Source: a bacterium HR30
GTDB taxonomy: Bacteria; Desulfobacterota; Binatia; HRBIN30
DNA: 46,942 bases
Direction: 5' to 3'
NCBI GenBank assembly: GCA_002898795.1
Contig: BEIG01000014.1
Location: forward strand, 1 to 46,942
The position numbers were made by a program, and so were the translations under genes. Below are positions 1,701-35,356 of the stretch, one piece after another; positions within the stretch are counted from its first letter, which is position 1; every line of letters begins with the position of its first letter. The notes below the pieces were generated by a model. The model was not told where the DNA came from, did no database searches, and saw only the letters and a list, made by a program, of their open reading frames with translations.

Positions 1701-1701
1701 A

Positions 1702-3270: not shown

Positions 3271-3399
3271 CGCTGCACCTCCTCATGGCTGTTGCAGTGT
3301 ACGGGGAGAACGAAGCCAAGTCCAGCATCCCTGATCTGCGAGAGTCAAACTAGGGCCCGGTAGGAGTCTGGCCGCTGTACCCGCAGCTGCCCGTAGCTC

Positions 3400-4407: not shown

Positions 4408-4444
4408 GTCCCGTGCTTATGGCAGAACGCGGAGTGGAAGTCAC

Positions 4445-5173: not shown

Positions 5174-5202
5174 GCTTCAATTGCGCCAAAGTGGTTTTTT
5201 CC

Positions 5203-7748: not shown

Positions 7749-7803
7749 ACGGACACGAACTCGTAGCGAGGTTGCGAGGTAAATCCAACTGCAACGCTGC
7801 GAC

Positions 7804-7832
7804 TTGACTTTGCGGTGGGCAAACTCCATTAG
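7804..7832 (+). promoter_or_regulatory. Possible sigma70-type promoter for the M23 peptidase gene
   Basis: A TTGACT hexamer (7804-7809) is followed after 17 bases by CATTAG (7827-7832). The -35 element matches five of six consensus bases, the -10 only three. It lies 33 bases before the ATG at 7865, inside the divergent gap with bioF. Spacing and position are right, the -10 is poor. Confidence 0.3.
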
Positions 7833-7864
7833 GCGCTGCTCCCCCACAGGGTGCAGGAAGAACG

Positions 7865-11150: not shown

Positions 11151-11159
11151 GTGAACGCC

Positions 11160-11621: not shown

Positions 11622-12069
11622 ACGATATTCGATGGGGTCCGATGTCCGTTCGGCCGAGCACGCGCTCGAATTGATGCGACCGGTGGATGGATCAACCCGT
11701 AGTGGTGTGGAATCGCGTCGGTGTTGTGTAATTTGCCATGGCGGAGCTTTGGTGCCGACGAGCGCGGCCCTGGCTCGATCATGGAAGGCGTTGTGCCAAG
11801 GTGTCGGAGGACTTCCGCTGCGCTAGCGTTGGCCCCTGATGGCCTGCGGGCCGGCCGTACGGTGAAAGAGAAGAGAAAGCGGTTTGCCCACTGGCTGCGA
11901 CGGGACCGACACAATGGCAATCTCCGTGCGGTGATTGGCCCTGTCGTCCATCATGCATCGAGACGGAGGCCACGGGTGCGCTCTTGGTTTTCGCGCAAGG
12001 TGCGCGCCTTGGATCCGTGGATGACTAGAGCATTCCGGGGGGTGCCGAAATGGATCGGGAGACTGGCCG
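11622..12069. other. Intergenic stretch without a recognisable gene
   Basis: About 450 bases between the pseudo-receiver gene and the convergent glycosyltransferase. Frames on both strands are open for stretches, as is common in GC-rich DNA, but they have no credible start region and no family resemblance. No T-tailed hairpin was seen. Confidence 0.45.
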
Positions 12070-13893: not shown

Positions 13894-14443
13894 CGATGTC
13901 CTGAAGCTGAAACGCCGCGTTTAGCGAGAATCGGCGAACTTTCCAAATGCCGCTTGCAGGTGCTCTGAAGAGGTTTGAGATAGCCAACCGCCTCGCGCTC
14001 CGGCGACACGGCTCCGTCGCCGGGGGCCAAGCTGTGCACCTAATGCGAGGCGCAAGCGAGGGTCCGCGCCCTGCCACCGCCGCTTGCGCCCGGTCAAGCA
14101 CATGACGCGATGGCAACGTGTGAGGCCGTACGCTGGGCCGTAGGGAGAGCTGCCTCAGGTTGGCGGAGGTTGCCGGTCCGATGCGGCCCTTGTTTCGCCA
14201 GGCTCAGGGTGACTACGGCAACATCCTCGGGACCGCAGTCTTTTCTTGCGCTTGTGGCAGCCGCTGTGCCGGTGTGAGTTCACCTACGCCTATCGACCCA
14301 GCGCGTGAGGGGCTTGGGGCCAGTTTCGGAAAACCTGTCGCGCTACGATAGACGGAATCACTTCTCATGTGGGAGCACTCGTACCGTATGACTCGAGCAT
14401 TACGCAGCACGAACGCTCGTCAGCACAGTAAACCACAGAGGTG
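13894..14443. other. Intergenic stretch with one strong hairpin, no recognisable gene
   Basis: About 550 bases upstream of the glycosyltransferase and downstream of the sirtuin gene. No frame looks like a gene. It contains the hairpin at 14000-14023. The remainder shows nothing I can name. Confidence 0.45.
14000..14023. repeat. Perfect 8-bp inverted repeat (hairpin)
   Basis: CCGGCGAC and GTCGCCGG flank an 8-base loop, and the stem can be extended by a T-G and a C-G pair. No T-run follows on either strand. It could be a transcript-end stem for the sirtuin transcript or an operator; neither can be decided here. Confidence 0.4.
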
Positions 14444-15220
14444 TCATCTTCCTCGGAGCAAACGCACAGCTTCGACGATCTTAGGGAGTGCTTCTCCTGC
14501 TGGAGCCCGCACGGTGACGGTGCAGTAGGGAGTCAGTTCGGTTTCGTAGGGGTTGATCTCCACCAGGGCGCCGCCACGTTGATGCACGTCCAGTGGAAAA
14601 CCGGCTGCCGGATAAACGGTTGCTGAGGTGCCGACCACGAGCATACAGTCGGCGCGGGCCGTCTCCTCTTGGCAGCGGCGGAGCACATCGGGAGGAATGG
14701 GTTCACCAAACGACACCGTGTCGCTCTTGAGCAATCCCCCACACTCTGGGCAGGTGGGCGGCAACTGACTTAAGTCGACCGCCTCCATGGGCATCCGCCG
14801 TACGCAGGAAAGGCAGCGCACCAACGTGGCGTTCCCGTGGATCTCCGCCAAGAGTTCACTGCCAGCGCGCCGATGCAGGTTATCCACATTTTGGGTGATC
14901 GTGCAACGCAACACACCCAAACGCTCGAGTTCGACAAGCCCGTAGTGTCCGGGGTTGGGTTGCGCTCTCACCAGCGTCTCCCACAGCTCACGCATGGGCC
15001 CGCTTGGGTTGAGCCGTTCTTCCCACGCCTTCTTCGGATCGGCGAGGAAGCGCTGAAAACCGTTCAACGGCGGTTCACCGTACTTCGTCCACAAACCTCC
15101 CGGCCCCCGAAACGGGGGAATTCCGCTTTCTACGGAGAGACCAGCGCCCGTCAAAGCCACGACGTAGCGCGCTCGGTGCACCACTTCTGCCGCTTGTGCG
15201 ATGGTATCTTCCCAGCTCAT
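14444..15220 (-). CDS. NAD-dependent protein deacylase, Sir2 family
   Basis: A 258-residue sirtuin that removes acyl groups from lysines using NAD. The NAD-binding GAGLSVESGIPPFRG lies at residues 25-39, TQNVDNLHRRAG at 109-120, the catalytic His in EIHGN (His128), and a four-Cys zinc site at Cys136, Cys139, Cys157 and Cys160. The ATG at 15220 (MSWEDTI) gives the family length and has AAGG just upstream; the frame is open to 15295 but the extra residues do not look like a sirtuin. The Tyr-x-x-Arg pair that marks desuccinylase-type sirtuins is not evident in the WEERLNPSG region, so deacetylation is more likely. It is divergent from a small exported protein. Confidence 0.93.
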   Translation of the reverse strand: MSWEDTIAQAAEVVHRARYVVALTGAGLSVESGIPPFRGPGGLWTKYGEPPLNGFQRFLADPKKAWEERLNPSGPMRELWETLVRAQPNPGHYGLVELERLGVLRCTITQNVDNLHRRAGSELLAEIHGNATLVRCLSCVRRMPMEAVDLSQLPPTCPECGGLLKSDTVSFGEPIPPDVLRRCQEETARADCMLVVGTSATVYPAAGFPLDVHQRGGALVEINPYETELTPYCTVTVRAPAGEALPKIVEAVRLLRGR

Positions 15221-15238
15221 GCCCTTGCTAGCACTACG

Positions 15239-15267
15239 TTGAGCGATTACCGAATGTCGACTATACG
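15239..15267 (+). promoter_or_regulatory. Putative sigma70-type promoter for the small exported protein
   Basis: TTGAGC (15239-15244) and TATACG (15262-15267) are separated by exactly 17 bases. They lie about 50 bases before the ATG at 15316 in the 95-base divergent gap with the sirtuin gene. Both hexamers match four of six consensus positions and the spacing is ideal. Confidence 0.45.
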
Positions 15268-15315
15268 GGCAAGGCTCTAGAGCAGGAGTCAGCATTGGGG
15301 TTGCGGAGGAAACTT

Positions 15316-15846
15316 ATGTTCGGATGTCGGTGGACCATAGCGGCAAGTGTGTTGGCGAGTTGTGTGGCGGCGAGCGCCTTTGCCCGAGATCCTATCCCGG
15401 TGCGGGACAAAAGCGGAAAGGTCTGGGCGGAGGTGGTGGTCTGTAACGACTGCAAAAACCCGAGCGATTCCGGATGTTACGAGGGTGCCGAAGTTGGTTG
15501 GCTCAATGGCCGGCCGTGTGGCAAATGCTTCGTAGAGAGGAACTACGGCAGACTTGTTCCCATTCCGTACGATGTTCACTACACGGGTACCCTAGTGGAT
15601 GCGAACGGTGCGCCGGTGAAAGACCGATTCGTGAAACTGTTCGTACAAAACGGCTGGGGCCACCGCTCGGCTACGCGACCGGATGGTACCTTTCGCATCA
15701 TTACGGGCGCTACCGGGGAGCGGCAGTCAAATGAGCCGATCGTGGTGGACTTGGGTCGGATCGTCGACCAGCAAAAGGACGCGAACGACCGCTTTTTTGC
15801 TTTGTTTTTGCTCTCGCCGGATCACAAGCCTTGCGAACCGCAGTAA
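15316..15846 (+). CDS. Small exported protein with carboxypeptidase-regulatory-like fold
   Basis: A 176-residue secreted protein. The ATG at 15316 is chosen because GGAGGA lies 5 bases upstream; a TTG at 15295 would put the ribosome site inside the gene. A signal peptide of about 23 residues ends in ASAFA. Four Cys follow in the first part (CNDC, C, CGKC), enough for disulfides or a metal site. The second half, beginning with YTGTLVDANGAPVKDRFV and RPDGTFRI, looks like the small beta-sandwich (transthyretin-like) domain found in carboxypeptidase-regulatory repeats. Function is unknown. A good promoter precedes it. Confidence 0.75.
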   Translation: MFGCRWTIAASVLASCVAASAFARDPIPVRDKSGKVWAEVVVCNDCKNPSDSGCYEGAEVGWLNGRPCGKCFVERNYGRLVPIPYDVHYTGTLVDANGAPVKDRFVKLFVQNGWGHRSATRPDGTFRIITGATGERQSNEPIVVDLGRIVDQQKDANDRFFALFLLSPDHKPCEPQ

Positions 15847-16085
15847 GGACCGGGGCACGCGGCGTGACGCTTCGTAAGCGCTGACGGCCAGTAATCTTAG
15901 CTGGGGGTGGATGGTTTCGGCACCAATTCATCGGCGTCGCGCGCACCTTCGAGGGGATCGGCTTGTTTCCGTGAATTTCGGCCGAGGAAGGCGGGGGCGA
16001 GGTTAGAGTCGGGGAGAAAGCCAAGCTGGCTTCGCCAAGAGGTGCTTTTCTTTCGCTGGTCTCTGGTGCTAGGGAACAAACTACT

Positions 16086-17075
16086 ATGGCTTCGGCCAAG
16101 GAAGCGAGTACCGCGATGGATTCGCACAATGCGGCCGCTCCGGGCCCGCTGTGGCCGCCTTCCGGTGTGCGCTTGCCGGCGGAGGAGTTGCGGCCACTCA
16201 TGCAGATTAGGCCGTCGAGGGCATGGGCGGCCATTGCGTCGACCTGGGGATTGATCGGTGCGAGCCTGACCCTGGCGATCGCGTATCCTCATCCGCTCAC
16301 CTGGTTCGTGGCCTTCCTGATCGTCGGCCGCTGCCAACACGCTTTGGCCGTGCTCATGCACGATGCAGCTCACTACCGCTTGTTCGAAAACCGTGGGTGG
16401 AATGATTTCGTTGGCCACTGGCTTTGCGCTCGCCCCATTGCCAGCCACTTGGTCGCCTACCGGACCGTGCACCTACGGCACCACAAGTACCTCCTGACGG
16501 AGAAGGATCCGGACCTTTCCCTGTCGCTTCCGTTCCCTTGCGGGCGTGCCAGTTGGTGGCGGAAATTACTGCGGGATGCCACGGGCATTTCGGCTTTGAC
16601 CATGCGCGGTTACTTAACTGTGGATCGAGCGAGTGGGCGTGTGCGGCTCGCCCGTGGCAATTTGCTTCGAAGGTGGACCTGGTCCACCGCCATCCAGCGA
16701 GCGCTTGTGGCCCTTGGTGTGGGCGCGTTGTTTTGGTGGGGTTATGGTTGGGCATTTGTGGCCCTGTGGTGGCTGCCGCTGATGACGGTTTACCAGGTTA
16801 TATTGCGCGTGCGCGGAGTGTTGGAGCACGCGGCGGTTCCCGACCGACTCGACCCGCTGCGGAACGCACGGACGATCGTCACGCGAAACCCGATTGCCAA
16901 GTTCTTCCTGAACCCGCATCACGTGGCTTACCACCTCGAGCATCACCTCTATCCGGCCGTGCCGCATTACAATCTGCCGCGGCTGCATCAGGCGTTGCGG
17001 GCAACGGGACGATTCGCGACCGCGTTGGTGGAGGACGGTTACCGCCCGGCTTTGCGGTCTGTCATCGGTGCCTAA
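16086..17075 (+). CDS. Membrane fatty acid desaturase
   Basis: A 329-residue di-iron integral membrane desaturase. Three histidine boxes are intact: HDAAH (92-96), HLRHH (129-133) and HLEHH (283-287), with an extra HH at 278-279. Hydrophobic segments lie around 48-85 and 202-240. Family members insert a double bond in acyl lipids using oxygen and an electron donor, so the organism is at least able to use oxygen. The start is uncertain: ATGs at 16086 and 16116 both have weak ribosome sites. Two small membrane-protein genes follow closely and are probably co-transcribed. Confidence 0.9.
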   Translation: MASAKEASTAMDSHNAAAPGPLWPPSGVRLPAEELRPLMQIRPSRAWAAIASTWGLIGASLTLAIAYPHPLTWFVAFLIVGRCQHALAVLMHDAAHYRLFENRGWNDFVGHWLCARPIASHLVAYRTVHLRHHKYLLTEKDPDLSLSLPFPCGRASWWRKLLRDATGISALTMRGYLTVDRASGRVRLARGNLLRRWTWSTAIQRALVALGVGALFWWGYGWAFVALWWLPLMTVYQVILRVRGVLEHAAVPDRLDPLRNARTIVTRNPIAKFFLNPHHVAYHLEHHLYPAVPHYNLPRLHQALRATGRFATALVEDGYRPALRSVIGA

Positions 17076-17105
17076 CGCCTCCGGGATAAGACGGGGAGTA
17101 AGCGA

Positions 17106-17612
17106 GTGAACGGAAGATTGATTGCAGGAGTGGTTGGGCTCATCGTCTTGGCCTTTGGTTTGTCGGGCTTGTTGTACCCCGAGCGAGTCATGGAATTTGC
17201 TGGCTTCGCCGTGGCACCCACCGCAAGTGCGGCGCAAGCCACGGCGGAGGCACGGGCCGTGTACGGTGGGCTCTTCGTCGTGCTTGGAGCCTGGGTGGTT
17301 TACGCTGCACTGCGGCAGTCGCGCCAGTTGCTCGTGCTCGGGGGCACCTTGTTTCTCGGTGCCGCGAGCGGGCGACTTGGGGGAGCCTACGTGGCTGGTA
17401 GCCCCGGAATATGGGGTTGGATTGGCGCGATCGTCGAGATTGCGCTCGGTGTTGCTTTATTGGCCGCTGCTTGGTCGTTAGGGCGCGACGAGGAATGGCC
17501 AGCGTTGGCTGTTCCGGCACAACCCAGTGAGGGAGGAAGGCCGATTGCAGCGGCTCCGCCTCGGGACGTGCCGCCATCCTCGGGAACGACGGGCGCGCCG
17601 TTTTCGCCATAA
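17106..17612 (+). CDS. DUF4345-like small integral membrane protein
   Basis: A 168-residue protein with four predicted helices: about 5-23, 50-68, 72-90 and 98-122, then a Pro/Arg-rich cytoplasmic-looking tail. The first helix with FGLSGLLYPERVMEF and the EARAVYGGLFVVLGAW stretch resemble the DUF4345 family of unknown function. It starts with GTG and lies 30 bases after the desaturase; the FUN14 gene follows after only 3 bases. The role is unknown; the context suggests membrane lipid physiology. Confidence 0.75.
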   Translation: MNGRLIAGVVGLIVLAFGLSGLLYPERVMEFAGFAVAPTASAAQATAEARAVYGGLFVVLGAWVVYAALRQSRQLLVLGGTLFLGAASGRLGGAYVAGSPGIWGWIGAIVEIALGVALLAAAWSLGRDEEWPALAVPAQPSEGGRPIAAAPPRDVPPSSGTTGAPFSP

Positions 17613-17615
17613 GCT

Positions 17616-17963
17616 ATGGGAGGCCCTGCCCCGAGTTTCGATTGGCAACAACTCCTTTCCGGTTTGCCCGTCGGGCAACTCGGATTTGGGGGGATGGCAG
17701 GGCTGGTCGCTGGCTACGCCGCGAAGAAAATTGCTCGACTAGCCGCCGTGTTGTTGGGCGTATTGTTTTTCTTGTTGCAAATTCTGGCCTACGAGGGTTG
17801 GATCACCATTCACTGGCACGAGGTGCAACGCTCGGCAGACGAGTTTTGGCTTCGGGCGCAGGAGCAAGGCCTGTGGGAACGCGTCTGGGATGTGGTGACC
17901 GGTAATCTTCCGTTTGGTGGAGCATTCACCGCCGGCTTTTTGATCGGGTTTCGGCTGGGCTGA
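17616..17963 (+). CDS. FUN14 family membrane protein
   Basis: A 115-residue protein with a glycine-rich helix (GFGGMAGLVAGYAAKKIAR, about 23-41), a strongly hydrophobic helix (about 42-58) and the C-terminal PFGGAFTAGFLIGFRLG signature of the FUN14 family. In eukaryotes FUNDC1 works at mitochondrial membranes; bacterial members have no settled function. It begins 3 bases after the DUF4345-like gene and ends 10 bases before the convergent phosphofructokinase gene. Confidence 0.85.
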   Translation: MGGPAPSFDWQQLLSGLPVGQLGFGGMAGLVAGYAAKKIARLAAVLLGVLFFLLQILAYEGWITIHWHEVQRSADEFWLRAQEQGLWERVWDVVTGNLPFGGAFTAGFLIGFRLG

Positions 17964-17973
17964 AGGGGGCCGA

Positions 17974-19284
17974 TCAGTGAGGCGCTGCGGTCGCGCTCTC
18001 GCTTCCCCACGTAGGACGGGGGAGCACCAGCGGCGGGGGCTCTAGCTCCACCAGATATTCGAATTGGCGGCGGAATTCTTCGGGGGTGAGGTGCGCCGTG
18101 CGAGCGAAACGGGCGATTTCTTCTTCCCGCTCGAAGTCGTCGCGGCGCAATCGGATCATGTACCGTCGCGCAATGGCGTAGCGTGTGGAGTAAACGTCAA
18201 CCAGACGCACTCGCGTGCGACCCGTGTGCGGGTCGAGCAACTGGTCAAAGGGAATGGGCACGAACTGACCGCCTTGCAACGACACCATCACTCGGTCGCC
18301 GCCTTCGATGAGGAACTTGGCGGCGCAGTAACCGAGGTCGCGCGTGTATTCGAGGTCGTACGGAATGGGGTCGGCGCAACGCAGTTCATACCCGATGTTC
18401 TTGGCAGTGAGAGTGACCTTCACCCCGAGTTCGGCCAAGCGTTGCGCAAGAGCACGTTTGACTGTATCCCCGAGATCGATCTCCGAGAGCCGTACGTGGC
18501 CGTGCTCGTCGCGTTCGACGTGCTCGAGACCTTCGATGTCCTGGGGATCCATGTCGAGCACAACCCCTTCAGCAATGATCGCCACTCCGTCTCGCCGGCC
18601 GTCGGCCAGGCGCTTGATGATGGCCCCTGCCAAGATGTCCACGATGTGCCTGAGACGCACCCGGCGGCCCAGGAATTCCTCTAAGATTAGTGTCAGGGTG
18701 GCACCTGCAGCCTTACCGATGCCGAGCGCGAGATGACCGGCCTTCCGGCCCATGGTCACCACGATATACCAGCGCGAGGTGGTGTAAGCGTCGACCATGA
18801 GATTTTTCACCAGCTCCACGCCGACATGGCGGGCAGTTTGAAACCCAAAGGTGTCGACGTGAGGCGGAAGATCAAGGTCGTTATCGATCGTCTTCGGTAC
18901 GTGTACCACGCGAAGCCGTCCGCCAGCGTGTTCCGCCAACCGCATGGCAGAGTAAGCCGTATCGTCGCCGCCGATGGTGATGAGGCGATCGATTCCGAGG
19001 GCGTCGAGCACTTGAACGCAACGATCGAGGAGTTCCGGGCTTTTTGTGGGGTTTGCTCGCGAGATGCCGATGATCGACCCGCCGCGAAAGTGTACGCGGC
19101 TAACTTTGTCGATGGTTAGGGGCTCGATCTGATCGGTGCGCCCGTTCATGATGTGCTCGAAGCCATCGCGAATGCCAACCACCGGAACGCCCTCGAGCAC
19201 AGCCCGAATGGTTGCGGCACCAATGACACTATTGATCCCCGGTGCTGGCCCACCCCCAACCAGGATGCCCAATTTTTTTTCCAT
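17974..19284 (-). CDS. 6-phosphofructokinase, pyrophosphate-dependent type
   Basis: A 436-residue PfkA-superfamily enzyme phosphorylating fructose 6-phosphate. Two positions decide the donor in this family. The E. coli GGDGS motif reads GGDDT here (105-109), and the GTIDND motif reads PKTIDND (130-136). The Asp and Lys at these places are known to block ATP and favour pyrophosphate, so this is probably a reversible PPi-dependent enzyme. The sugar-phosphate MGR motif (VTMGRKAGHLAL) is present. The N-terminal glycine loop GGGPAPGINSVIG is typical. Length is between the short PfkA and long plant-type PFP. It follows lpdA in the same direction with a 140-base gap, so shared transcription is possible but not shown. 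Confidence 0.9.
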   Translation of the reverse strand: MEKKLGILVGGGPAPGINSVIGAATIRAVLEGVPVVGIRDGFEHIMNGRTDQIEPLTIDKVSRVHFRGGSIIGISRANPTKSPELLDRCVQVLDALGIDRLITIGGDDTAYSAMRLAEHAGGRLRVVHVPKTIDNDLDLPPHVDTFGFQTARHVGVELVKNLMVDAYTTSRWYIVVTMGRKAGHLALGIGKAAGATLTLILEEFLGRRVRLRHIVDILAGAIIKRLADGRRDGVAIIAEGVVLDMDPQDIEGLEHVERDEHGHVRLSEIDLGDTVKRALAQRLAELGVKVTLTAKNIGYELRCADPIPYDLEYTRDLGYCAAKFLIEGGDRVMVSLQGGQFVPIPFDQLLDPHTGRTRVRLVDVYSTRYAIARRYMIRLRRDDFEREEEIARFARTAHLTPEEFRRQFEYLVELEPPPLVLPRPTWGSESATAAPH

Positions 19285-19426
19285 ACTGCCAAATCCTCCG
19301 TCTCCAAGCCACGTATTTTAGTACGCAGCTTCGCAAGCTCGCACGGTCTTTTCCTTGCTACGAAGCTAGGCCAGTCAACCGCACGACGCGCGAGGCCGCA
19401 GGGGAGTCATCCTACAAATCGTGCCC

Positions 19427-20848
19427 CTAGATATTGAGCGGGCGCCCATCGACGGCCAACGCCGCCTCGCGCAAGGCTTCGGGTAACGTGGGGTGAGCGT
19501 GACAGGTCCGGGCCAAGTCCTCTGCACTCGCGCCAAATTCCAGGGCCAACGCCGCTTCGGCAATTAAGTCAGAGGCCCGGGGACCTAAGATGTGCACCCC
19601 CAAAACGCGATCCGTTTTCGCGTCGGCAATGACTTTCACTTGCCCGTCCGTTTCTCCCAGGCAGCGAGCGCGGCCATTCGCCAAAAAGGGGAAGGTGCCA
19701 ATGCGCACTTCAATCCCGCGGTCACGAGCTGCTTCCTCGGTGAGGCCAACTGCAGCCAGTTCCGGTGCGGTGTACACCACATTGGGTACAGCGTCGTAGT
19801 TCACATGAGAGGCAATACCGCACATGCGTTCCACCGCAGCAATCCCTTCTTCTTCGGCTTTGTGGGCGAGCATGGGTCCGGGGATGACGTCGCCAATGGC
19901 GTAAATTCCCTTGACGCTGGTTTGGTACTCCTGGTCGACCAAAATGAATCCCCGCGGATTCCGCTCGATCCCGAGTTCCTCCACGCCCAAGCCTTCCGTG
20001 TACGGCTTGCGGCCTACGGCAACCAACACGATGTCAACGTCGACCGTTGTGGTCTTGCCCCCTTGGTCGAGCGTGACCCGTACCCCGTTGGAGATCGGTT
20101 CCGCCGAGCGTGCCGTTGTTTGGAGTTCGATGCGAAGCCCCTGGCGCTGCAAGCTTTTTTGCAACATGTCGGCCAGTTTACGGTCCATGCCGGGCAAAAT
20201 GCGGTCGAGGAATTCCACCACCAGGACTTCCGATCCTAATCGCGACCATACCGAGCCCAACTCCAAGCCAACAGCACCGGCACCGATCACCAGCATCTTC
20301 TGCGGCACTCGCGGCAGGGACAGTGCTTCGGTGGAAGAGACGATCCGCTCGCCATCGAACGGCAAACCAGGCAACGCTGCCGGTACACTGCCCGTTGCAA
20401 TGAGAATCCGTTCTGCGGCTAGCTCCCGTTCGCTCGTGTTGTTTCGCACGAGCACCCGCCCTGGCCCGAGGATGCGTGCAGTACCGTGCACCCGCTCGAT
20501 GCCATGTTTTTTGAAGAGGCCGGCAATTCCTTGGGTCAGAACCTTCACCACACGATCTTTGCGCGCCATGAGGGCGGCCAGGTCGAGCTCCACTTCTCGC
20601 ACGCGAATCCCATGCGAGGGCAAGTGCTGTCGCGTCTGGGCATAGAGTTCACTCGAGTCGAGCAGCGCTTTGCTCGGGATACAGCCAATGTTCAAGCACG
20701 TGCCCCCCAGCGTGGGCTCTTTTTCCACGCAGGCCACGCGTAGCCCCAACTGTGCTGCCCGGATGGCGGCGATATACCCACCTGGTCCGGCTCCGATGAT
20801 CACGAGGTCGAACGACTGCGCCCCTTTTCCTTGTTCGCTGTGCGACAT
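19427..20848 (-). CDS. lpdA: Dihydrolipoyl dehydrogenase (E3)
   Basis: FAD-dependent enzyme that reoxidises the dihydrolipoyl group of 2-oxo acid dehydrogenase complexes and passes electrons to NAD. From ATG 20848 (GAGGAGG 5 bases upstream) the protein is 473 residues, the usual length; the frame runs to 20911 but the added residues are not family-like. Visible features: FAD-binding IGAGPGGYIAAIRAAQLG, the redox disulfide in GGTCLNIGCIPSK, the NAD-binding IGAGAVGLELGSVW, the second FAD site YAIGDVIPGPMLAHKAEEEG, and the C-terminal His-Glu pair in CHAHPTLPEALREA. It completes the sucA-sucB-lpdA unit. Confidence 0.95.
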   Translation of the reverse strand: MSHSEQGKGAQSFDLVIIGAGPGGYIAAIRAAQLGLRVACVEKEPTLGGTCLNIGCIPSKALLDSSELYAQTRQHLPSHGIRVREVELDLAALMARKDRVVKVLTQGIAGLFKKHGIERVHGTARILGPGRVLVRNNTSERELAAERILIATGSVPAALPGLPFDGERIVSSTEALSLPRVPQKMLVIGAGAVGLELGSVWSRLGSEVLVVEFLDRILPGMDRKLADMLQKSLQRQGLRIELQTTARSAEPISNGVRVTLDQGGKTTTVDVDIVLVAVGRKPYTEGLGVEELGIERNPRGFILVDQEYQTSVKGIYAIGDVIPGPMLAHKAEEEGIAAVERMCGIASHVNYDAVPNVVYTAPELAAVGLTEEAARDRGIEVRIGTFPFLANGRARCLGETDGQVKVIADAKTDRVLGVHILGPRASDLIAEAALALEFGASAEDLARTCHAHPTLPEALREAALAVDGRPLNI

Positions 20849-20929
20849 AAGTTCCTCCTCGTAGATTGATCTCGACCAGCGCAGTTCGCGCAGGGGTTCA
20901 ATGTTCGGCAACCCGCGGATCGTGGCGGC

Positions 20930-22267
20930 TCAAACCCCTAAGAGTAAGCGACTCGGGTCTTCGATCCGTTCCTTCACCCGCACCAAAAAGGTTACCGCTT
21001 GCTCTCCATCGACGAGCCGGTGATCGTACGAGAGGGCAACGTACATCATCGGGCGGATCACGATTTGGTCGTCGACGACGACTGGTCGCTTTTCGATCTT
21101 GTGCATCCCGAGAATGCCGCTTTGCGGTGGGTTCAAGATCGGCGTCGACAGCAGAGATCCGAACACTCCACCGTTGGTGATGGTAAACGTTCCGCCACTG
21201 ATGTCGTGGATACCCAGCTTGCCTTGGCGAGCCAAGCCAGCCAGGCGCTCGATCTCGCTTTCGATTTCGGCAAAGGAGCGCTGGTCGGCGTAGTGAATGA
21301 CAGGCACGACTAAGCCTCGCTCCGTAGCCACGGCGATGCCAAGGTGAACGTGCTTGTGGTACACGATTTCGTCGCCATCGATGAAGGCATTGACCACGGG
21401 GATTTCTTGCAAAGCGGCGACACACGCCTTGGCGAAGAACGACATGAACCCGAGGCTGACCCCGTAACGTTTTTGGAATCGCTCGCGGTACTGAGCTCGC
21501 AATGCGATCACGGCGCTCATGTCGATTTCGTTGAAGGTGGTCAGAATTGCCGCTGTGTGCTGAGCTTGTACCAAGCGTTCGGCGATGCGCTTGCGCAAAT
21601 GGGTCATCGGCACGCGCTCTTCTTCTTGGGCGCGGTCAAGCCGGGGCGGCGATGGTGGCGGCGGCGGTGGGGCTTCGGCACGTTCCGCTTGAGGTACAGC
21701 CTCTGGCGTACCGGGCGCAGGCCCTGGGGATTCCTGGGTTGGCGTGGGTGGGGCGGTTTCGCGCTCCCGTTCAAGATACGCCAGCACGTCGGCCTTGGTG
21801 AGTCGCCCGCCCTTACCCGTGCCACGAATGCGTGTGGCATCGAGCTTGTGTTCTTCGACGAGGCGGCGTACCGCCGGACTCAGCAGCGGGCTCTGAGCGG
21901 TGACAGGTGGCGCTTCCTTTGCCTGTGGCGGCGAAACGCTCGTCGGACCTGGCGGCGGGGGCACTGGAGCTTCAGCGGCTCGCGTGCCGGATGGCGTCTG
22001 GTCTGGGCTCGAGGTGGTGCGGACTTCGGCTGGGAGAGGCTCGATGGTGGCAACCACAGCGCCAACTTCCACAGTGGCCCCTTCTGGTTGCACAATGTGC
22101 AAGATGCCCGTGGCTGTTGCGGGAATTTCCACACTGGCCTTGTCCGTCTCGAGTTCGAGAATCGGCTCGTCGGTCTCGACTCGTTCTCCCTCCCTTTTCA
22201 TCCAACGGATGATCACCCCTTGCGTGATCGATTCGCCGAGCGATGGAATGCGTACTTCAACGGGCAT
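20930..22267 (-). CDS. sucB: Dihydrolipoyl succinyltransferase, E2 of 2-oxoglutarate dehydrogenase
   Basis: A 445-residue E2 core of the 2-oxoglutarate dehydrogenase complex. It has one lipoyl domain (1-80) with the lipoylated lysine in [10 protein letters not shown] (Lys43), a Pro/Ala-rich linker, a peripheral subunit-binding domain (about 125-165, [16 protein letters not shown]), a second Pro-rich linker, and the catalytic acyltransferase domain ending in the active-site [11 protein letters not shown]. The start overlaps the end of sucA by 11 bases and has GGAGGA within sucA, so expression is coupled. Its pairing with a 2-oxoglutarate-type E1 supports SucB rather than another E2. Confidence 0.95.
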
Positions 22268-24998
22268 GGGTCCTCCGCAGTGCAGCGTGAATGAGTTCTT
22301 GCTCCTCGCTCTGATGCACTTTGTACGAGCCAGTGGCCGGGCTTGCGGCCGGACGACGCCCCGCGTAGAGAATTGGCCGGTCCTTCCCCACGAGGCGCAG
22401 CAAGTGACGGAACATCTCGTTCCAGGCGCCCATATTTTGTGGTTCCTCCTGCGCCCACATCACCTCCGCTCGTTCAGGATAAAGGCCCAAGAAGGTACGC
22501 ACTTCGTTCTCGGGAAAGGGGTAGAGCTGCTCGATGCGCACGAAGGCGACATCATCGATGTCCCGCTCGCGGCGAGCCACCAGCAGGTCGTAGAAAACCT
22601 TGCCCGAGCACAGGATGACACGGCGGACTTTCTTCGGATCGATCGGGTCGACGTCGCCCAGCACGGGTTGGAACGTGCCTTCCACGAAGTCCCTTACCGG
22701 GGAAACGCACAGCTTGTGTCGCAACAAACTCTTGGGCGTCATCAAGATCAAGGGTTTGCGAAAATTCCGGTGAATCTGGCGGCGCAATGCATGAAAGTAC
22801 TGCGCTGGGGTGGTGAGGTTGCAGACCTGGATGTTCTTTTCTGCGCATAGCTGCAAAAAGCGCTCGAGCCGGGCGCTCGAGTGTTCCGGACCTTGTCCCT
22901 CGTACCCGTGCGGCAGGAGCAGGACGAGGCCGCTCATCTTTTGCCACTTCGATTCTGCAGCCACGATAAACTGGTCGATAATGACCTGGGCGTTGTTCGC
23001 GAAGTCGCCAAACTGAGCTTCCCACAACACCAAATTGCGGGGGTCGGCAGAGCTGAAGCCGTACTCGAACCCGAGTACGGCAAGCTCGGAAAGCATCGTA
23101 TCGATCACGGTGAAGCGTCCTTGTTTTTCTGCCAGGTGATCGAGAGGAACGTAACGCGCGCCCGTCTGGACGTCGTACCAGATCGCGTGGCGCTGGCTGA
23201 AGGTACCGCGGCCGCTGTCTTGGCCGGCCAGACGCACGGGGGTTCCCTCCAACAAAAGAGAGCCAAAAGCAAGCATTTCTGCCGTGGCCCAGTCTACTTG
23301 ACCCTCACCTTGCAGCATCTCGATGCGCTGTTCGTAAAGCCGGCGAATCTTAGGGTGCACCGCGAACCCTTCCGGCACGCGCGCAGCCTTACGGACAATT
23401 TCCTCGAGGACCTCGCGCGGCACCGCCGTACGAGCACTCCAGTCGTCCCCCGCCCAGCGCATCCCTTTCCACACTCCCCCAAAGACGAACACTTGCTGGC
23501 GGGGCATGAAATCGCGGGCGTAATTTAGGGCGTCTTCAAAGAGCTCGCGCAGTGCGGCAGCTTGTTCCTCGAGTTCTTTTTCCTGCACCACCCCAGCGCG
23601 GAGTAGCCTTTGCGCGTAAAGCTTTCGCACCGTTGGGTGCGCTTCGATTCGGCGGTAGAGGGTGGGCTGGGTGAAGGTGGGGTCGTCGGTTTCGTTGTGG
23701 CCATGTCGGCGGTAGCAAACGAGATCGATAAAGACATCTCTTTTAAATCGTGCCCGGAAAGCGGCCGCGAGGCGCGCGGCTTGAACAGCGGCTTCCGGAT
23801 CGTCGGCGTTCACGTGGAAGATCGGGGGATGCAAAAACTTGGCGAGGTCTGTGGGGTAACGCGTTGGGCGGTAATTTTCCGGCTCCGTGGTAAAGCCGAT
23901 TTGGTTGTTGATGATGATGTGGATGGTGCCACCCGTGCGATAATCGCGCAGTTCCGACAACGCTAGGGTTTCTGCGACAATCCCTTGGCCACAAAAAGCT
24001 GCGTCGCCGTGGATCACGACCGGTTGCACGCGCGAGCCATCGGTATCGCCCAGGTAGTGCTGCTTGCCGCGCACGATGCCCTCTACCACCGGGTCGATAG
24101 CCTCCAGGTGGCTTGGGTTCGAGCAGAGCGAGAGGTGCATCTTGTGGCCGCTTCTCGTCAGGATGTCCTTGGAGTACCCGAGGTGGTATTTCACATCTCC
24201 GTCCCCCGGGATGTGCGCCGGCAAGCGGGTGCCCTCGAACTCCGCGAAAATCATTTCGTACGGCTTGCGCAAGATGTGCGCCAGCACGTTGAGCCGGCCA
24301 CGATGAGCCATCCCCATGACGATTTCTTGCACGCCCTGGCGGCCTGACTCCTCGACCAGTTCGTCCAGAAGAGGAATCAACGCTTCGGCTCCCTCCAGGG
24401 AGAAGCGTTTTTGACCGAGGTATTTGACGTGCAGAAACTGCTCGAAACTTTCAGCCTGAGTGAGGCGATAGAGAATATACTTCCGATCTTCGTCCGTGAG
24501 CTCCGGACGATTCAGCGATGGCTCCATGCGTTCCTGAAGCCAGGTGCGCTGTTCCTTGTCGTCGGTGTGCATGTACTCCACACCGAGCGTTCCGCAGTAA
24601 ATCGCTTTGAGCCGATCGATGACATCTCGCAACCGGCCCCGTGGGAAGCCTTTGAGCATCGGTGTTTCCACAATGCGGTCGAGGTCGGCTTGCGAAAAGC
24701 CGAATTCTTCCGGTTCGAGAAGCGGATGTGACTTCAGGTTGTTCCCTAACGGATCGAGGTTGGCAATTAAGTGACCGATCTCCCGATAAGAGTGCACCAG
24801 GTTATACACGCCGATGTGCGGGCTGAAGGTGGGAGGAGCTTGGACAACTTCTGCTGCCGGCTCCCGGCGTGCTAATTCGTAGCCCGCGAAAAACAGCGCC
24901 CAAGACGGATCCACCGAGTTCGGATCGCTTTGGTAGCGCCGATACATCTCTTCGATGTATTCGGCATTCGCCCGGGAAAGAAAGTCTAGCTTGGTCAC
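22257..24998 (-). CDS. sucA: 2-oxoglutarate dehydrogenase E1 component
   Basis: Thiamine-diphosphate enzyme that decarboxylates 2-oxoglutarate in the TCA cycle. From GTG 24998 the protein is 913 residues, near the E. coli length; the choice rests on a GAGGAGG site six bases upstream and on the N-terminus [18 protein letters not shown], typical of SucA. The frame is open to 25067 but the extra part is not family-like and would overlap the preceding gene. Landmarks: the [10 protein letters not shown] motif, [18 protein letters not shown] with [10 protein letters not shown] of the ThDP site, the [13 protein letters not shown] motif, and the C-terminal [14 protein letters not shown]. It is followed by sucB with an 11-base overlap. 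Confidence 0.96.
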
Positions 24999-25041
24999 CG
25001 CTTGCCTCCTCGCACCCGGAGCATAGCAGGGATCGACGATG

Positions 25042-25521
25042 TCAAAGCAGGGCTCCTCCCTGCCCATCGAAGCTTTGGAGCACAGTGAGCACCTCGGCGG
25101 CGGTGGAAGCGCGCTTCAGCTCGGATCGGCAGCGTTCGGATTGGAGGACCAAGGAGAGCGAGGAGAGAAACTGCAAATGTTCTGTGGCTAGGGTGACCGA
25201 CGAGACCACCAAGGCCACGATGGAAATAGGTAAACCAAAAGCAACTTCGTAAACCGCGCGGGGCGCCACGGCCAAGGCACAGGCAATCCCGTCGATGGCG
25301 TCGGTGCGTACGTGTGGGATGCTGACCCCGATATCCAACATAGCGGTGCTACTTTGGCGTTCCCGCTGACATACTTGTTCGAGCGTGATCGACACAGAAT
25401 CGGCCGGTAGCCGAGAGGCCTGGACTAACACGTCCAAAAGGCCCTGGATCGTGGCTTCGAAGTTCGGCCACGACTGGCCAACGACAACAACGTGTTCGTC
25501 CAAAACCTCTGCTAACCGCAT
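25042..25521 (-). CDS. PTS EIIA domain protein (PtsN/fructose-type)
   Basis: A 159-residue single-domain EIIA protein of the mannitol/fructose/nitrogen class. The phosphorylatable histidine is in GVSIPHVRTDAI (His70), the conserved place, so phosphorylation by HPr or NPr should be possible. No sugar permease (EIIB/EIIC), EI or HPr gene is nearby, which points to a regulatory role like PtsN (EIIA-Ntr) rather than sugar uptake. It lies 43 bases upstream of the sucA GTG in the same direction, so it is probably the first gene of the 2-oxoglutarate dehydrogenase operon. Regulation of that operon or its enzymes is a reasonable guess, not shown. Confidence 0.85.
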   Translation of the reverse strand: MRLAEVLDEHVVVVGQSWPNFEATIQGLLDVLVQASRLPADSVSITLEQVCQRERQSSTAMLDIGVSIPHVRTDAIDGIACALAVAPRAVYEVAFGLPISIVALVVSSVTLATEHLQFLSSLSLVLQSERCRSELKRASTAAEVLTVLQSFDGQGGALL

Positions 25522-25892
25522 TGGCCCAGTGTGCTCGCGTCAGTAAGAGAACGCAATTTTGCCATGCGTTGCAAGGGATCGTTTGGGGCCCGATCGCGGC
25601 GCAAGCTTTGGCCGGGTCCGGAGCGAACCTACCCGGCAGGCGGTGTGGCGTTGTGGCTACAGGGTCCGTAGTAGCGCATTTGTGAACGAGGAGACCCGAG
25701 ACAAGTGGTCCGAGTCGGCGTCTGCAGTGTGTCCACTCAGTTTGCCGAAGGCGGTTTCGAGGTTGTGCGTCGTTTCGGGTGCCGCGCTTGCGCTCGCCCT
25801 TTGGTAGCCGACGGCAACGCGAAACTTACGTCGGCACGTAGAGTGAAGTTCTGCTGTTGACTTATCCGACTCGCGGCCCCAGCATCCATAAG
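25522..25892. other. Divergent intergenic region, no recognisable gene
   Basis: About 370 bases between the EIIA gene (minus) and the dockerin-bearing lipoprotein gene (plus). It must carry promoters for both. I found no well-spaced consensus pair and no clear operator palindrome. A short plus-strand frame around 25560-25800 lacks a credible ribosome site. Confidence 0.45.
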
Positions 25893-27464
25893 ATGCGCAT
25901 ACTTTTGCCTTTGAAACGGTCCGTGGCCGCCATGGTCGGAGGCCAAACGCTAATCGTAGCGGCCATTTTTTCGTGGCTGAGTGCTTGTGCTGCCGGGTCC
26001 TCCTGGGCGAGCCCGGTTACTGGCACGTTGACCAATTTCGATGTCGTCAACGATACGGGCAGACCGACACACGGTTTCGAGATCGAGCTCGAAGGAGTGC
26101 GTCACGAAGACATTTCCTTCACCTTTGGCGATCCTCACAGCCGTTACGGGGATCCGGAGGTCATCGACGTTTCGGGTGCAACCCCAAGGACAGTCGTACG
26201 CTATCGGCGTTGGGATGGATCGGCGTGGGTGTCGACCCCAGTGGCGGGCGAGGCCGTGCGTCCCCGCGGCCATGATTGCTTTCGAAATGGTCCCATCGGG
26301 AATTATGCAACCAGCGGGTGCGAGCATTTTGGGCTGAGTACGGCTTTGGAACCAACGCAGGTAGTCTATCGCTGGCTGGTTGCGGTTAGCCCAGGAGACT
26401 TCAACAGCCTCTTCGAGCCAGTAGCTCTCACTGCCTCGCTACCGGTGCCGGCTTGGAGGGTGCAGCCGCCTCCGATCGAAGGTGGCGGCGGCGTCGCGGT
26501 TAGGGCAGAAGTGGAACCGCCTGAAGAGGAAAGGGAGGGACAGTACGGAGAGCCTCAGTGGGTGAAGGTGTTTAAGGTTACTTCCGAGGAAAAATTAGAG
26601 CCCCAGGACCTCGTGCGGTTGTTACTAGGGGCGCCAGATAGTGTGGTTCCGGGTGAAACGGAAATCGAGACCGAGTGGAAGCTGATTCAGTCCAAGCCTG
26701 GTTTGGCGGAAGGTGACGAAGAAGATGCCGACGTGCGGGAAGAGGTGTTGCCTGCAGGCCGGCGGTCGGTGATTCGGCGCTACGAATTTTACCGGTACAC
26801 TGGACCAAGAGATCCGGAGAACAATGAAGCGCTGCCTTGCGTCGCCGACGATCAAGCGGTGCCGGCAAATGCACCGGTGAACGGCTGTTCAGACCTGGGC
26901 GACTTCATAGGGGCACAAAACGTGGCCATCGATGTTGGGCTTTCCGCCTTAGATGAGCCCCTCCCCGAAGGGGTTCAGGGCGCCAACTATGGCCCAGTGG
27001 AAGTGTTTTACGGTGGGTCTCCCCCGTACGAGATCCGAATTCTTAGCGGCGCGCTCCCGCGTGGCGTTTCGCTCGAAACAACTTCGGGCATCTTGCGTGG
27101 AAAGCCTGAGAGTGCCGGGGAATTTGAGTTCACCCTGGAGGCGACGGACTCCACTGGTGAGCGCTTAATGGCGAGGTTCCGCCTCAGTGTTCGAGGAGAA
27201 CTGTTGCCCACGCCAACGCCGAGCCCCACGGTTGTTGTCGAACCTACTGCTTCGCCCACACCGACCGAGGGTAGCCCTCGGTGCGTCGGCGACTGTAGCG
27301 GAGATGGTGCGGTTACCGTGGATGAAATTGTTACGCTGGTCAACATTGCTCTTGGCCTGTCCGGAGCAACGAGTTGTCCGCTGGGAATCCCCGGAGACAC
27401 GGAGGTGGACATCACCATCATTATCCGCGCGGTTGCATCGGCGTTGAACGGCTGCCCAACGTGA
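25893..27464 (+). CDS. Exported (probable lipo-) protein with Ig-like and dockerin-like domains
   Basis: A 523-residue surface protein of unknown function. From ATG 25893 there is a basic start, a hydrophobic core and LSAC at 29-32, which fits a lipobox (Cys32 lipidated). The body (40-350) contains beta-rich sequence with few Cys and no recognised enzyme motif. Around 360-430 there is a putative Ig-like repeat of the He_PIG type, with GGSPPYEIRILSGALPRGVSLE and GILRGKPESAGEFEFTLEATD. A Pro/Thr linker follows, then a C-terminal dockerin-like pair: the first EF-hand loop, DCSGDGAVTVDE, is complete, the second is degenerate (GDTEVDITIIIRAV). The module ends in NGC. Such modules bind cohesins in known systems; a cohesin-like domain is encoded at about 40.2-40.6 kb. 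Confidence 0.75.
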   Translation: MRILLPLKRSVAAMVGGQTLIVAAIFSWLSACAAGSSWASPVTGTLTNFDVVNDTGRPTHGFEIELEGVRHEDISFTFGDPHSRYGDPEVIDVSGATPRTVVRYRRWDGSAWVSTPVAGEAVRPRGHDCFRNGPIGNYATSGCEHFGLSTALEPTQVVYRWLVAVSPGDFNSLFEPVALTASLPVPAWRVQPPPIEGGGGVAVRAEVEPPEEEREGQYGEPQWVKVFKVTSEEKLEPQDLVRLLLGAPDSVVPGETEIETEWKLIQSKPGLAEGDEEDADVREEVLPAGRRSVIRRYEFYRYTGPRDPENNEALPCVADDQAVPANAPVNGCSDLGDFIGAQNVAIDVGLSALDEPLPEGVQGANYGPVEVFYGGSPPYEIRILSGALPRGVSLETTSGILRGKPESAGEFEFTLEATDSTGERLMARFRLSVRGELLPTPTPSPTVVVEPTASPTPTEGSPRCVGDCSGDGAVTVDEIVTLVNIALGLSGATSCPLGIPGDTEVDITIIIRAVASALNGCPT

Positions 27465-27951: not shown

Positions 27952-29292
27952 CTACTCACATCCCACGAGGAGGTCGCTCACCGCCTCGACCAGTTCGTCG
28001 ACCGTGACTTGCCCGTCGCCAGACGTGTCGGCAGGCAGGCAATCCACAAGGCCCGTTGCGCCGAGAGCGATGGTCACGCCTTCGACAACTTCATCCACCG
28101 AAACCACACCATCGGCGTTGCAATCTGCCACACACGGGTCCACGTCAGGGCAGGGTCCCGGCGTCAGTACAGGGTCCCCGCCGAGTGCGAACTCTCCACT
28201 TCCGAGCTGCGATGTCAGCGACGCGTCCCACACCGTCACGTGAGCCACCCCCTGGCGATTGAGGTCGAACCCGAACGCGGCCAACCATTCGTTGTCGGGG
28301 CTGGCGACGAGCCAGACAGTGCCGGCCTTGCATCGCGTGGTTTCGATGAAGCGTTCCTCCGGCAAAGCAAGTAAAGCAACCTCACAACCACGCGGCCCGC
28401 CATAAGCGAGGTAGAAGCTTGTGCCATCCCCGCTGGCCGTCATGGGTGTTGGGATTGCAAGTGTGCCTGGCACCGCAACACGGCCCAACACGCGGAGCCC
28501 ATCCAAGTCCACAACGAGGAGGCTCTTTTCCCAGGGCGAGCCATGAAAAGCGGGTGGCCCGAAGTAACCTCGTTCGAGGCCGAACGGTTTCACGAAAGAC
28601 CATGGATGCCGGTCGTCACTCAGCTGAACGACCCCGCGAATTCGGCCAGTTCCGATGTCGATTGCGGATACAGCCGACGGGATTAGGCCTCTGAACATGC
28701 CCCAAGCCCAATGGGCCGCGTAAAGAGTCGCCCCGTCGTCCGAAAATCGCAAGGCCAGCACGTCTCCCGCGACCTCCGCTGAGCGAACGACTTGCCCGGC
28801 TACCAAGTCGTGGACCACTATTGTTGCACCTCCATCCGCGGTGGCCAATAAGTTGCGGGCAGGGGAATAGGACCAAACGTCGAAGTTGACCGGAAGATTG
28901 CCCTTCACCTTACCCCGCTGGAGATCTACGACGCGTCCAGTGAGCTCATTGCGATCAGTGGGGGACCCCGCGTTAGCTGTCGATGTTGCGAGTTCGATGC
29001 GCTCGAGCACTCTGATGCCAGCGAACGCGAGATCGTCCTGGCCAGCAACTGCGAGGGCCGTGAGATAAAAGTTTTTTCCATCCGCAACTGCGATGCGATG
29101 GCGGAAACGACCGGCTGGAAGGTCGATGGCACTGACCGTGCCACGCGCCGTCAGGTACGCACACGCTTGCCCAGCAAAAGTGGCTTCCGGCTCGACGAGC
29201 GTAAACAGACCCAAAGCAAGCGTGACGCGAACGGTAAGGCCAGGGCGAGCCGAACGAAGCCAAAACTCGAGAAGGTACCGGCAGGTGCTCAT
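27952..29292 (-). CDS. Exported beta-propeller-like protein with C-terminal dockerin-like module
   Basis: About 446 residues from ATG 29292; the frame is open to 29391 and an upstream start cannot be excluded. A hydrophobic stretch (about 16-40) ending in ATFAGQA is a likely signal peptide. The body looks like a WD40/YVTN-type propeller, with repeated blades such as LLATADGGATIVVHDLVAGQV and LRFSDDGATLYAAHW. The C-terminus has two good EF-hand loops, DCNADGVVSVDE and DTSGDGQVTVDE, in a dockerin-like arrangement with flanking Cys pairs, ending in VGC. It may be a ligand-binding or scaffold-bound surface protein; the function is unknown. Confidence 0.75.
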   Translation of the reverse strand: MSTCRYLLEFWLRSARPGLTVRVTLALGLFTLVEPEATFAGQACAYLTARGTVSAIDLPAGRFRHRIAVADGKNFYLTALAVAGQDDLAFAGIRVLERIELATSTANAGSPTDRNELTGRVVDLQRGKVKGNLPVNFDVWSYSPARNLLATADGGATIVVHDLVAGQVVRSAEVAGDVLALRFSDDGATLYAAHWAWGMFRGLIPSAVSAIDIGTGRIRGVVQLSDDRHPWSFVKPFGLERGYFGPPAFHGSPWEKSLLVVDLDGLRVLGRVAVPGTLAIPTPMTASGDGTSFYLAYGGPRGCEVALLALPEERFIETTRCKAGTVWLVASPDNEWLAAFGFDLNRQGVAHVTVWDASLTSQLGSGEFALGGDPVLTPGPCPDVDPCVADCNADGVVSVDEVVEGVTIALGATGLVDCLPADTSGDGQVTVDELVEAVSDLLVGCE

Positions 29293-29403
29293 CACTGCGG
29301 AACCCGTCGGGCAATCATTCTGATCCGGGCACCTGGGTTTTGCAACCCCGCGCTCGGCCGCCCGTTTCATACTTGCAACGCGTGTGGCCATCTTGGCAGA
29401 GCC

Positions 29404-33079: not shown

Positions 33080-33808
33080 ATGCCTACCTTGCCCCACTTT
33101 GCTTCAGCGGAATCGAGGGAAGACTTTCTGCAAGTTGTTCCAGGGGTGCAGCGTGGTTTAGCGGAGGAGCAAATTGTTCGGTTGCCTTGTGAAATTGCGC
33201 CATTTGACGCTCTTCTGGAGGGAGGTTGGCCACGAGGGCGTTTGAGCGAGCTTTACGGCACGCGTTCGTGTGGCAAGACCACGTTGGCCTTACACCTACT
33301 CGCGGCAGTAACGCGTCGGGGAGAAATGGGGGTATGGATTGATGCTGCCAACGCACTTCATCCGTTGTCGCTCGCTGCTGCCGGGGTTGAGTTGCCGCGC
33401 GTCCTCTGGGTGCGGCCGCGTTCTTGGCAGGAAGCGCTACGGAGCGCCGAAATTGTTCTGTCGAGCAAAGGGTTTGCGTTGGTTGTTCTCGACTGCGGAG
33501 AGCAAATCCCGCGCTGGCCAAGTCATGGTGCTTGGGTGCGCTTGCAACGAGCTGCAGCGCGGGCGCACGCCGTGCTGCTTCTTCTCACAGCACAGAGCTT
33601 AACGGGCAGTTTCGCCACATTGCGGATGCGCCTACAGGCCCGAAAGGCGCGTTGGGTGCGCGTGGGTCAGCAGGCGTTCCTGGAGGGGTTGCAGACAGTC
33701 GCTGTGGTGGAGCGCAATCGTACAGGCTCTGAAAGACAACAACGTTGCTGGGAGGTGGGATGGCAACTTGCCGGCAACGCCAATTGGACCGTGCAGGCGT
33801 GCGGTTGA
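33080..33808 (+). CDS. imuA: ImuA-like RecA-fold protein of the translesion mutasome
   Basis: A 242-residue RecA/SulA-type protein. The Walker A loop is at about residues 60-67 (GTRSCGKTT) and a hydrophobic strand VVLDCGEQ takes the Walker B place. The N-terminal VRLPCEIAPFDALLEGGWPRGRLSELYG matches the start of the RecA-like domain in ImuA. Gene order ImuA-ImuB-DnaE2 with short gaps supports the assignment. ImuA is known to be needed with ImuB for DnaE2-dependent mutagenesis, where it contacts ImuB. A GGGCAGGG purine stretch precedes the ATG. Confidence 0.85.
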   Translation: MPTLPHFASAESREDFLQVVPGVQRGLAEEQIVRLPCEIAPFDALLEGGWPRGRLSELYGTRSCGKTTLALHLLAAVTRRGEMGVWIDAANALHPLSLAAAGVELPRVLWVRPRSWQEALRSAEIVLSSKGFALVVLDCGEQIPRWPSHGAWVRLQRAAARAHAVLLLLTAQSLTGSFATLRMRLQARKARWVRVGQQAFLEGLQTVAVVERNRTGSERQQRCWEVGWQLAGNANWTVQACG

Positions 33809-33832
33809 CGCCCTTGTTGGGAGGCCTGGCCC

Positions 33833-35317: not shown

Positions 35318-35356
35318 ACACTTTCCCCTCGTGAGTTCGCACACCTCGGGGAGGCA

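Follow-up and report, generated by a model that had tools for sequence, protein, structure and literature searches.

The contig BEIG01000014.1 of bacterium HR30 (Desulfobacterota, Binatia; assembly GCA_002898795.1), a stretch of 46,942 nucleotides that was analyzed at its full length and is referred to here as the window, carries a gene for a single-domain EIIA protein of the phosphotransferase system (PTS) next to sucA, sucB and lpd, the genes of the 2-oxoglutarate dehydrogenase complex (2-OGDH). We propose, at a rough probability of 0.45, that this protein, here referred to as EIIA2, is a second output of the nitrogen PTS (PTSNtr) which acts on carbon metabolism and has become attached to 2-OGDH in one lineage. 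This reading is supported by the relay genes in the same genome, a 100/100 grouping of the EIIA2 proteins, the conserved residues His70 and His115, the EIIA fold, the adjacency to sucA, a conserved footprint upstream of the gene, carbon-related neighbors in other lineages and precedents in other bacteria. Genomes are cited by handle: G000 is the metagenome-assembled genome (MAG) that holds the window, G007 and G008 belong to the same genus, and G009 represents a sister genus.

EIIA2 as a Second EIIA of the PTSNtr Type

EIIA2 is encoded on the minus strand at 25042–25521 (159 amino acids, TGA stop at 25044–25042) and is one of two EIIA type 2 domains in all of G000. It matched Pfam family PF00359 with 56.9 bits against a gathering cut-off of 27, which places it among the type 2 EIIA proteins, and PF00359 was the sole Pfam match at E up to 0.001. 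Every NCBIfam cut-off tried was missed, including that of the PtsN equivalog TIGR01419 (23.3 bits, 138.7 required). The predicted phospho-acceptor His70 (codon 25312–25314, minus strand) lies in GVSIPH, with its IPH motif, and is the same residue in all 14 orthologues. His115 (codon 25177–25179, minus strand), at the position of the second active-site histidine of EIIA-Mtl, is kept in 13 of the 14 and is replaced by tyrosine in G010. An AlphaFold2 model, made with the 14 orthologues in the alignment, reached a predicted local distance difference test (pLDDT) score of 92.2 and a predicted template modeling (pTM) score of 0.88. The best solved structures were EIIA-Ntr proteins, with PtsN 3urr_A found by structure match (TMq 0.79) and 2a0j at the top of the profile search.

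In a midpoint-rooted tree of 43 EIIA domains, 19 EIIA2 sequences were found on one side of a branch with 100/100 support, opposite 17 PtsN and 7 other EIIAs, these last being the sequences that a long-branch warning concerned. The tree used 19 of 20 EIIA2 sequences, that of G074 being omitted with a tblastn coverage of just 128 residues. Relative to PtsN, EIIA2 also carries a one-residue insertion ahead of GVSIPH.

A reading made earlier from the sequence alone (the sequence-only reading) had described an EIIA with an intact phospho-His70 lying 43 nucleotides from sucA on the same strand, and this description was confirmed to the base. It had also related the protein to the nitrogen PTS, but an identity with PtsN was rejected: the rpoN locus on contig C56, the usual site of PtsN, holds another EIIA, the PtsN cut-off was failed and the tree group is separate. 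Assignment to the EIIA-Man/ManX class was rejected as well, as EIIA2 lacks the PF03610 domain and that family is missing from the genomes of the order (below).

Phosphorelay Genes in the Genome

The window is the entire contig C14 of a 3.7 Mb MAG with a completeness of 95.8%, and the other relay genes were found on further contigs of this assembly. Contig C56 has the gene order lptB-rpoN-hpf-ptsN-HPr, in which ptsN and HPr were identified by Pfam and lptB, rpoN and hpf by eye from their translations. A GAF-domain EI-Ntr is whole in G007 (815 amino acids); in G000 the N-terminal part, located by PF05524, runs off contig C173, and what is probably the C-terminal part sits at one end of contig C78. 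An EI candidate on contig C44 was rejected, the frame there reading by eye as a PPDK-like enzyme. Both genes expected for a PTSNtr output, a GAF-type EI-Ntr and NPr, are thus encoded by G000, its EI gene being split by contig ends. A search for relay genes elsewhere in the genome had been suggested by the sequence-only reading, and the proteins it turned up could phosphorylate EIIA2.

All 15 genomes of the order have a PF05524 match. Searches of the same genomes for PF02378 (EIIC) and PF03610 (EIIA-Man) each returned 0 of 15, other EIIB and EIIC families not having been searched for, so that the earlier remark that sugar PTS genes are absent holds over the assembly for the families tested. Because these counts coincide with a ptsN-HPr pair in the rpoN locus and an EI-Ntr, the parts encoded by G000 look like those of a regulation-only PTS with two EIIA outputs, of which EIIA2 is apparently the second, of PTSNtr type.

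EIIA2 could instead serve a PTS that transports sugar, or it could be a non-functional relic; we regard both as very improbable. The name of its Pfam family and weak matches to the EIIA domains of MngA and FruA (38 bits, far under the cut-offs) would fit sugar transport, but the EIIC family is missing from all 15 genomes. Against a relic stand the preserved active site and a ratio of nonsynonymous (dN) to synonymous (dS) substitution of about 0.1 between G000 and G008 (dN 0.108, dS 1.13; dS was not usable for the two remaining pairs).

As a PTSNtr output, EIIA2 would stand at the end of a chain in which phosphate passes from phosphoenolpyruvate (PEP) to the GAF-domain EI-Ntr, then to NPr, and from NPr to two terminal phospho-acceptors, PtsN and the second one, EIIA2, within a regulation-only PTSNtr. 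The phosphorylation state of EIIA2 would be set by the PEP/pyruvate balance and by the ligand of the GAF domain, and the protein would tune an enzyme of carbon metabolism through protein contact. In the lineage of the window the contact may be with SucA or SucB, and its effect on the complex may be of either sign.

The EIIA2-sucA Gene Pair and Its Distribution

All genes of the complex lie on the minus strand behind EIIA2. The E1 gene sucA (22257–24998, GTG start at 24998–24996) scored 1272 bits for NF006914 (cut-off 764) and overlaps by 11 nucleotides with sucB (20930–22267), the gene for the dihydrolipoyl succinyltransferase E2 (NF004309, 552.8 bits, cut-off 449). These are followed by lpd (19427–20848; an internal ATG was chosen as start) for the dihydrolipoyl dehydrogenase E3 (TIGR01350, 568.3 bits, cut-off 408.8). 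The next gene on this strand encodes a pyrophosphate-dependent 6-phosphofructokinase (PPi-PFK; 17974–19284, NF041103, 636.6 bits, cut-off 550). Between EIIA2 and sucA lies a gap of 43 nucleotides (24999–25041), equal in length in all three members of the genus, which includes the sucA ribosome-binding site GAGGAGG (25005–25011, minus strand).

A class-wide search covered 148 genomes, with up to 25 candidates scored per genome and more than 130 bits taken as EIIA2 strength. Matches of this strength came from 14 of the 15 genomes of the order and from six of seven genomes of one other family (f7), the next-best match among the candidates scored reaching 88 bits. G002, an assembly of about 1200 contigs, gave no EIIA2 match. 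When GTDB contigs were scanned with the EIIA2 profile, in a search that relied on two peptide patterns and was not exhaustive, six loci were returned, on contigs equal in length to the EIIA2 contigs of G003, G004, G005, G008, G009 and G010; among them is an 82% identical EIIA2 on CALAMI010000014.1.

SucA was above its cut-off in 14 of the 15 genomes of the order, and both genes could be located in 13; G014 is outside this count, as no SucA match there passed the cut-off and its EIIA2 gene lies 0.6 kb away from the end of a contig. EIIA2 and sucA are adjacent in four of the 13, namely all three genomes of the window's genus (G000, G007, G008) and G009, so that the attachment of EIIA2 to sucA is lineage-specific. 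The same four genomes have PPi-PFK after lpd. In G010, no PPi-PFK match was found in the 3 kb remaining after lpd, and a different contig carries the PFK DNA match of this genome; this comparison stayed within the window's family, where contig ends limit G011 and G012. Conservation of the neighborhood in relatives, on which the sequence-only reading had made its proposal depend, was thus found within two genera but not beyond them.

In the SucA tree, a branch with 80/95 support (82% of bootstrap trees) separates the four adjacent genomes from the rest, and a single origin of the pair would therefore suffice. Since the pair and its 43-nucleotide gap recur in G007 and G008, and the pair recurs in the sister genus at 43% EIIA identity, a chance neighborhood appears unlikely. 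EIIA2 would be the first gene of a transcription unit EIIA2-sucA-sucB-lpd, possibly continuing into PPi-PFK, in the window's own genus as well as in the sister genus of G009.

A Conserved Block Upstream of EIIA2

Non-coding conservation at the locus in G000, G007 and G008 is strongest before EIIA2. In an alignment of the three genomes, a block at 25545–25578 (minus strand), which ends 23 nucleotides short of the EIIA2 start, has 31 invariant columns out of 34; the figures are 8 of 44 for the ungapped columns that precede it and 4 of 23 for those leading from it to the ATG. We refer to it as a candidate promoter or operator, as no convincing sigma-70 hexamers were seen on inspection. Sigma-54 control was rejected by eye against the consensus, the GG and GC of the block being 7 and not 10 nucleotides apart.

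A pattern search of the three genomes recovered the block at the EIIA2 locus in each, with one extra match at three mismatches in G008. A reversed control pattern likewise matched once in G008, and a genus-wide regulon was rejected on this basis. The core of the block, GGCAAAATTGCG, occurs in the window eight times with up to two mismatches against 7.04 expected, no excess over chance. Among 23 loci, the block was matched with fewer than four substitutions only at L036, which is G008 itself. The block most likely belongs to EIIA2, since G007 has it although none of the neighboring genes there matched the divergent gene of G000. Its position suggests a single EIIA2-sucA operon, and in the window's genus the unit would be driven from this block. 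A scan of the window against Rfam found no RNA.

EIIA2 in Other Lineages

Neighboring genes were taken from mechanically called open reading frames, picked greedily, and are identified only where Pfam or NCBIfam names them. In family f7, a GH57 branching enzyme is encoded downstream of EIIA2 in 6 of 6 genomes (tblastn; L112–L117), with a DUF4912 gene between the two, as shown for G078 and G076. Four of these six also have a PFK gene near EIIA2, ATP-type by NCBIfam in G077 and about 80% identical in three more, and a GlgC-like gene is likewise near EIIA2 in four of six. In G012, malQ starts 19 nucleotides past EIIA2. Further neighbors are a molybdopterin oxidoreductase downstream in G010, a sigma-54 response regulator upstream in G013, an adjoining transglycosylase in G003 and, in G014, a GH38 alpha-mannosidase on the opposite strand. 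Counted by descent, the carbon contexts of EIIA2 number about three rather than eleven. Over all its contexts, the neighbors of EIIA2 suggest carbon storage and glycolysis in certain lineages, while in others no theme can be recognized.

Fusions of an HTH_17 domain to a PTS EIIA domain were seen in G014 and G011 (L024, 1273–1968; L028, 1432–2151) and also at L027, and a similar EIIA occurs in G013. Such fusions are a possible direct device from PTS to transcription. In G004 (L025, 1480–3357), an EIIA domain is fused to part of a Na/H exchanger with TrkA_N and a weak CBS match; PtsN of E. coli has been reported as an inhibitor of a K+/H+ antiporter (PMC11808508).

Adjacency, Promoters and the Proposed Role

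Several observations weigh against a role of EIIA2 in 2-OGDH control. EIIA2 and sucA lie apart in nine of the 13 genomes (G001, G003, G004, G005, G006, G010, G011, G012 and G013), and the conserved role of EIIA2 therefore cannot require a place next to sucA. Its sequence changes faster than that of SucA, with identities between G000 and G009 of 43% and 71%, the latter from 767 columns, as the G009 SucA in the tree is a piece of 768 amino acids. The EIIA2 tree, in which many forks are weak, does not group the four adjacent members; it requires two changes, and the four were united in 0 of 200 bootstrap trees. The pair may accordingly have been joined twice, or fast evolution of EIIA2 may misplace G009. 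Among the genes examined, no carbon-storage or glycolysis neighbor was found in G001, G003–G006, G010, G011 and G013. On the transcriptional side, an extended −10-like motif is conserved in the gap and could serve sucA as a separate promoter; within EIIA2, a terminator-like site was predicted on the minus strand (25414–25400; 12 such sites in the region against 7.8 expected); and no clear ribosome-binding site is visible ahead of the EIIA2 ATG.

The distribution data bear most directly on the alternative that EIIA2 is a positional partner only. Its targets would then lie elsewhere, a deletion or rearrangement would have placed it by sucA, and a shared promoter would have kept it there with no function in 2-OGDH; we hold this to be a serious possibility, somewhat short of even. 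It would explain the occurrence of EIIA2 in many contexts across the order as well as the ungrouped adjacent members in the EIIA2 tree. The window's family also offers a route: ribBA (by Pfam domains) is divergent to EIIA2 in G009, G010, G011 and G012, and in G012 sucA lies about 11 kb downstream of EIIA2 on the same strand, a spacing from which loss of intervening genes could create the pair. The pair may have arisen in this manner, or G012 may have gained genes. However, the pair is common to two genera, while window DNA left of the operon (1701–20000) matches five other contigs of G009, a comparison that is only indicative with fragmented MAGs. The shared PPi-PFK after lpd and the recurrence of carbon enzymes near EIIA2 in f7 and G012 also argue against a purely positional partnership.

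The gap itself bears on whether sucA is transcribed separately. Its 43 positions include 21 that are invariant in the three genus members, mostly in the ribosome-binding site and TGCTA. The latter is part of TGCTATGCT (25020–25028, minus strand), a possible internal sucA promoter that resembles the consensus of an extended −10 element, and the similar TGCTATTGT is seen in G009. If sucA were transcribed from this site, the upstream block would serve EIIA2 alone or act as an operator; the invariance of TGCTA and the related site in G009 fit such an arrangement, and the short leader would still contain the ribosome-binding site. No sigma-70 site emerged, however, from a consensus scan of 19000–26000, where chance would give 2.0, no minus-strand terminator-like site is predicted in the gap, and 43 nucleotides is a spacing typical within operons, all of which makes separate transcription quite unlikely. 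Co-transcription of EIIA2 with sucA would fit both the gap and the upstream block.

On balance, a direct link between EIIA2 and 2-OGDH is plausible. The sequence-only reading had proposed that the EIIA could connect nitrogen and carbon state to 2-oxoglutarate oxidation through the complex or its expression, and this is partly supported by the relay genes, the conserved active site, the adjacency in two genera, the upstream block and the Brucella precedent discussed below, but the protein is not PtsN and the adjacency is missing from most of the 13 genomes in which both genes were located. With carbon-flux genes near it in several lineages, the EIIA2 group supplies defined proteins for testing a PTS-2-OGDH link in another phylum, and should that link fail, a second PTSNtr-type EIIA is still documented in the order.

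Other Genes of the Window

Three consecutive plus-strand genes at 33080–38536 have domain matches to RecA-like, Y-family polymerase and DnaE-type proteins; we liken them to an imuA-imuB-dnaE2 mutagenesis cassette. Two putative exported proteins (25857–27464 and 27952–29391) show by eye a paired, EF-hand dockerin-like C-terminal pattern (He_PIG, weak EF-hand match). On the minus strand at 4445–7847, consecutive genes read by eye as bioD, bioA and bioF.

Comparison With Known Systems

Action of PTSNtr on central metabolism has been described mainly for proteobacteria, as summarized in a 2026 review (PMC13104625). No EIIA-sucA operon was described among the matches listed in our literature search, judged on titles and abstract openings, and neither 'phosphotransferase' nor 'PTS' occurs in the main text of the paper on Binatota genomes (PMC8262859). 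In Brucella, an EIIA-Man-like protein was reported to bind SucA in yeast two-hybrid and DivIVA localization assays, and its unphosphorylated form was proposed to inhibit 2-OGDH (PMC2937029). Unphosphorylated PtsN of P. putida is reported to inhibit pyruvate dehydrogenase, and the phosphorylation of ManX/PtsN in R. leguminosarum to affect tricarboxylic acid (TCA) cycle activity (both in PMC13104625). Given these precedents, 2-OGDH would be a reasonable target for EIIA2, although the EIIA class is not that of the Brucella protein.

A stronger version of the proposal would make EIIA2 a dedicated phospho-switch for 2-OGDH: a paralogue of Ntr fold that independently took the role proposed for an unrelated EIIA-Man-like protein, co-transcribed with E1, E2, E3 and PPi-PFK, through which PEP/pyruvate and the GAF ligand would gate TCA flux, the same switch being tied to glycogen synthesis and PFK in another family. 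We consider this version unlikely.

EIIA2 resembles EIIA-Ntr (PtsN) in its Pfam family, fold, phospho-histidine motif region and probable EI-Ntr/NPr donor chain, but differs in its own tree group, its one-residue insertion, a score under the TIGR01419 cut-off and a position outside the rpoN locus. With the EIIA-Man-like/ManX proteins reported from the alpha-proteobacteria Brucella and R. leguminosarum, it would share the place of a second EIIA in a regulation-only PTSNtr and a proposed target in 2-OGDH or the TCA cycle; those proteins belong to another EIIA class, and their link was drawn from protein interaction or physiology, whereas that of EIIA2 comes from genetic adjacency. PtsN of P. putida, as reviewed (PMC13104625), is likewise an EIIA of Ntr fold acting on a 2-oxoacid dehydrogenase complex, but there the complex is pyruvate dehydrogenase and the protein is the main PtsN, not a paralogue as EIIA2 appears to be.

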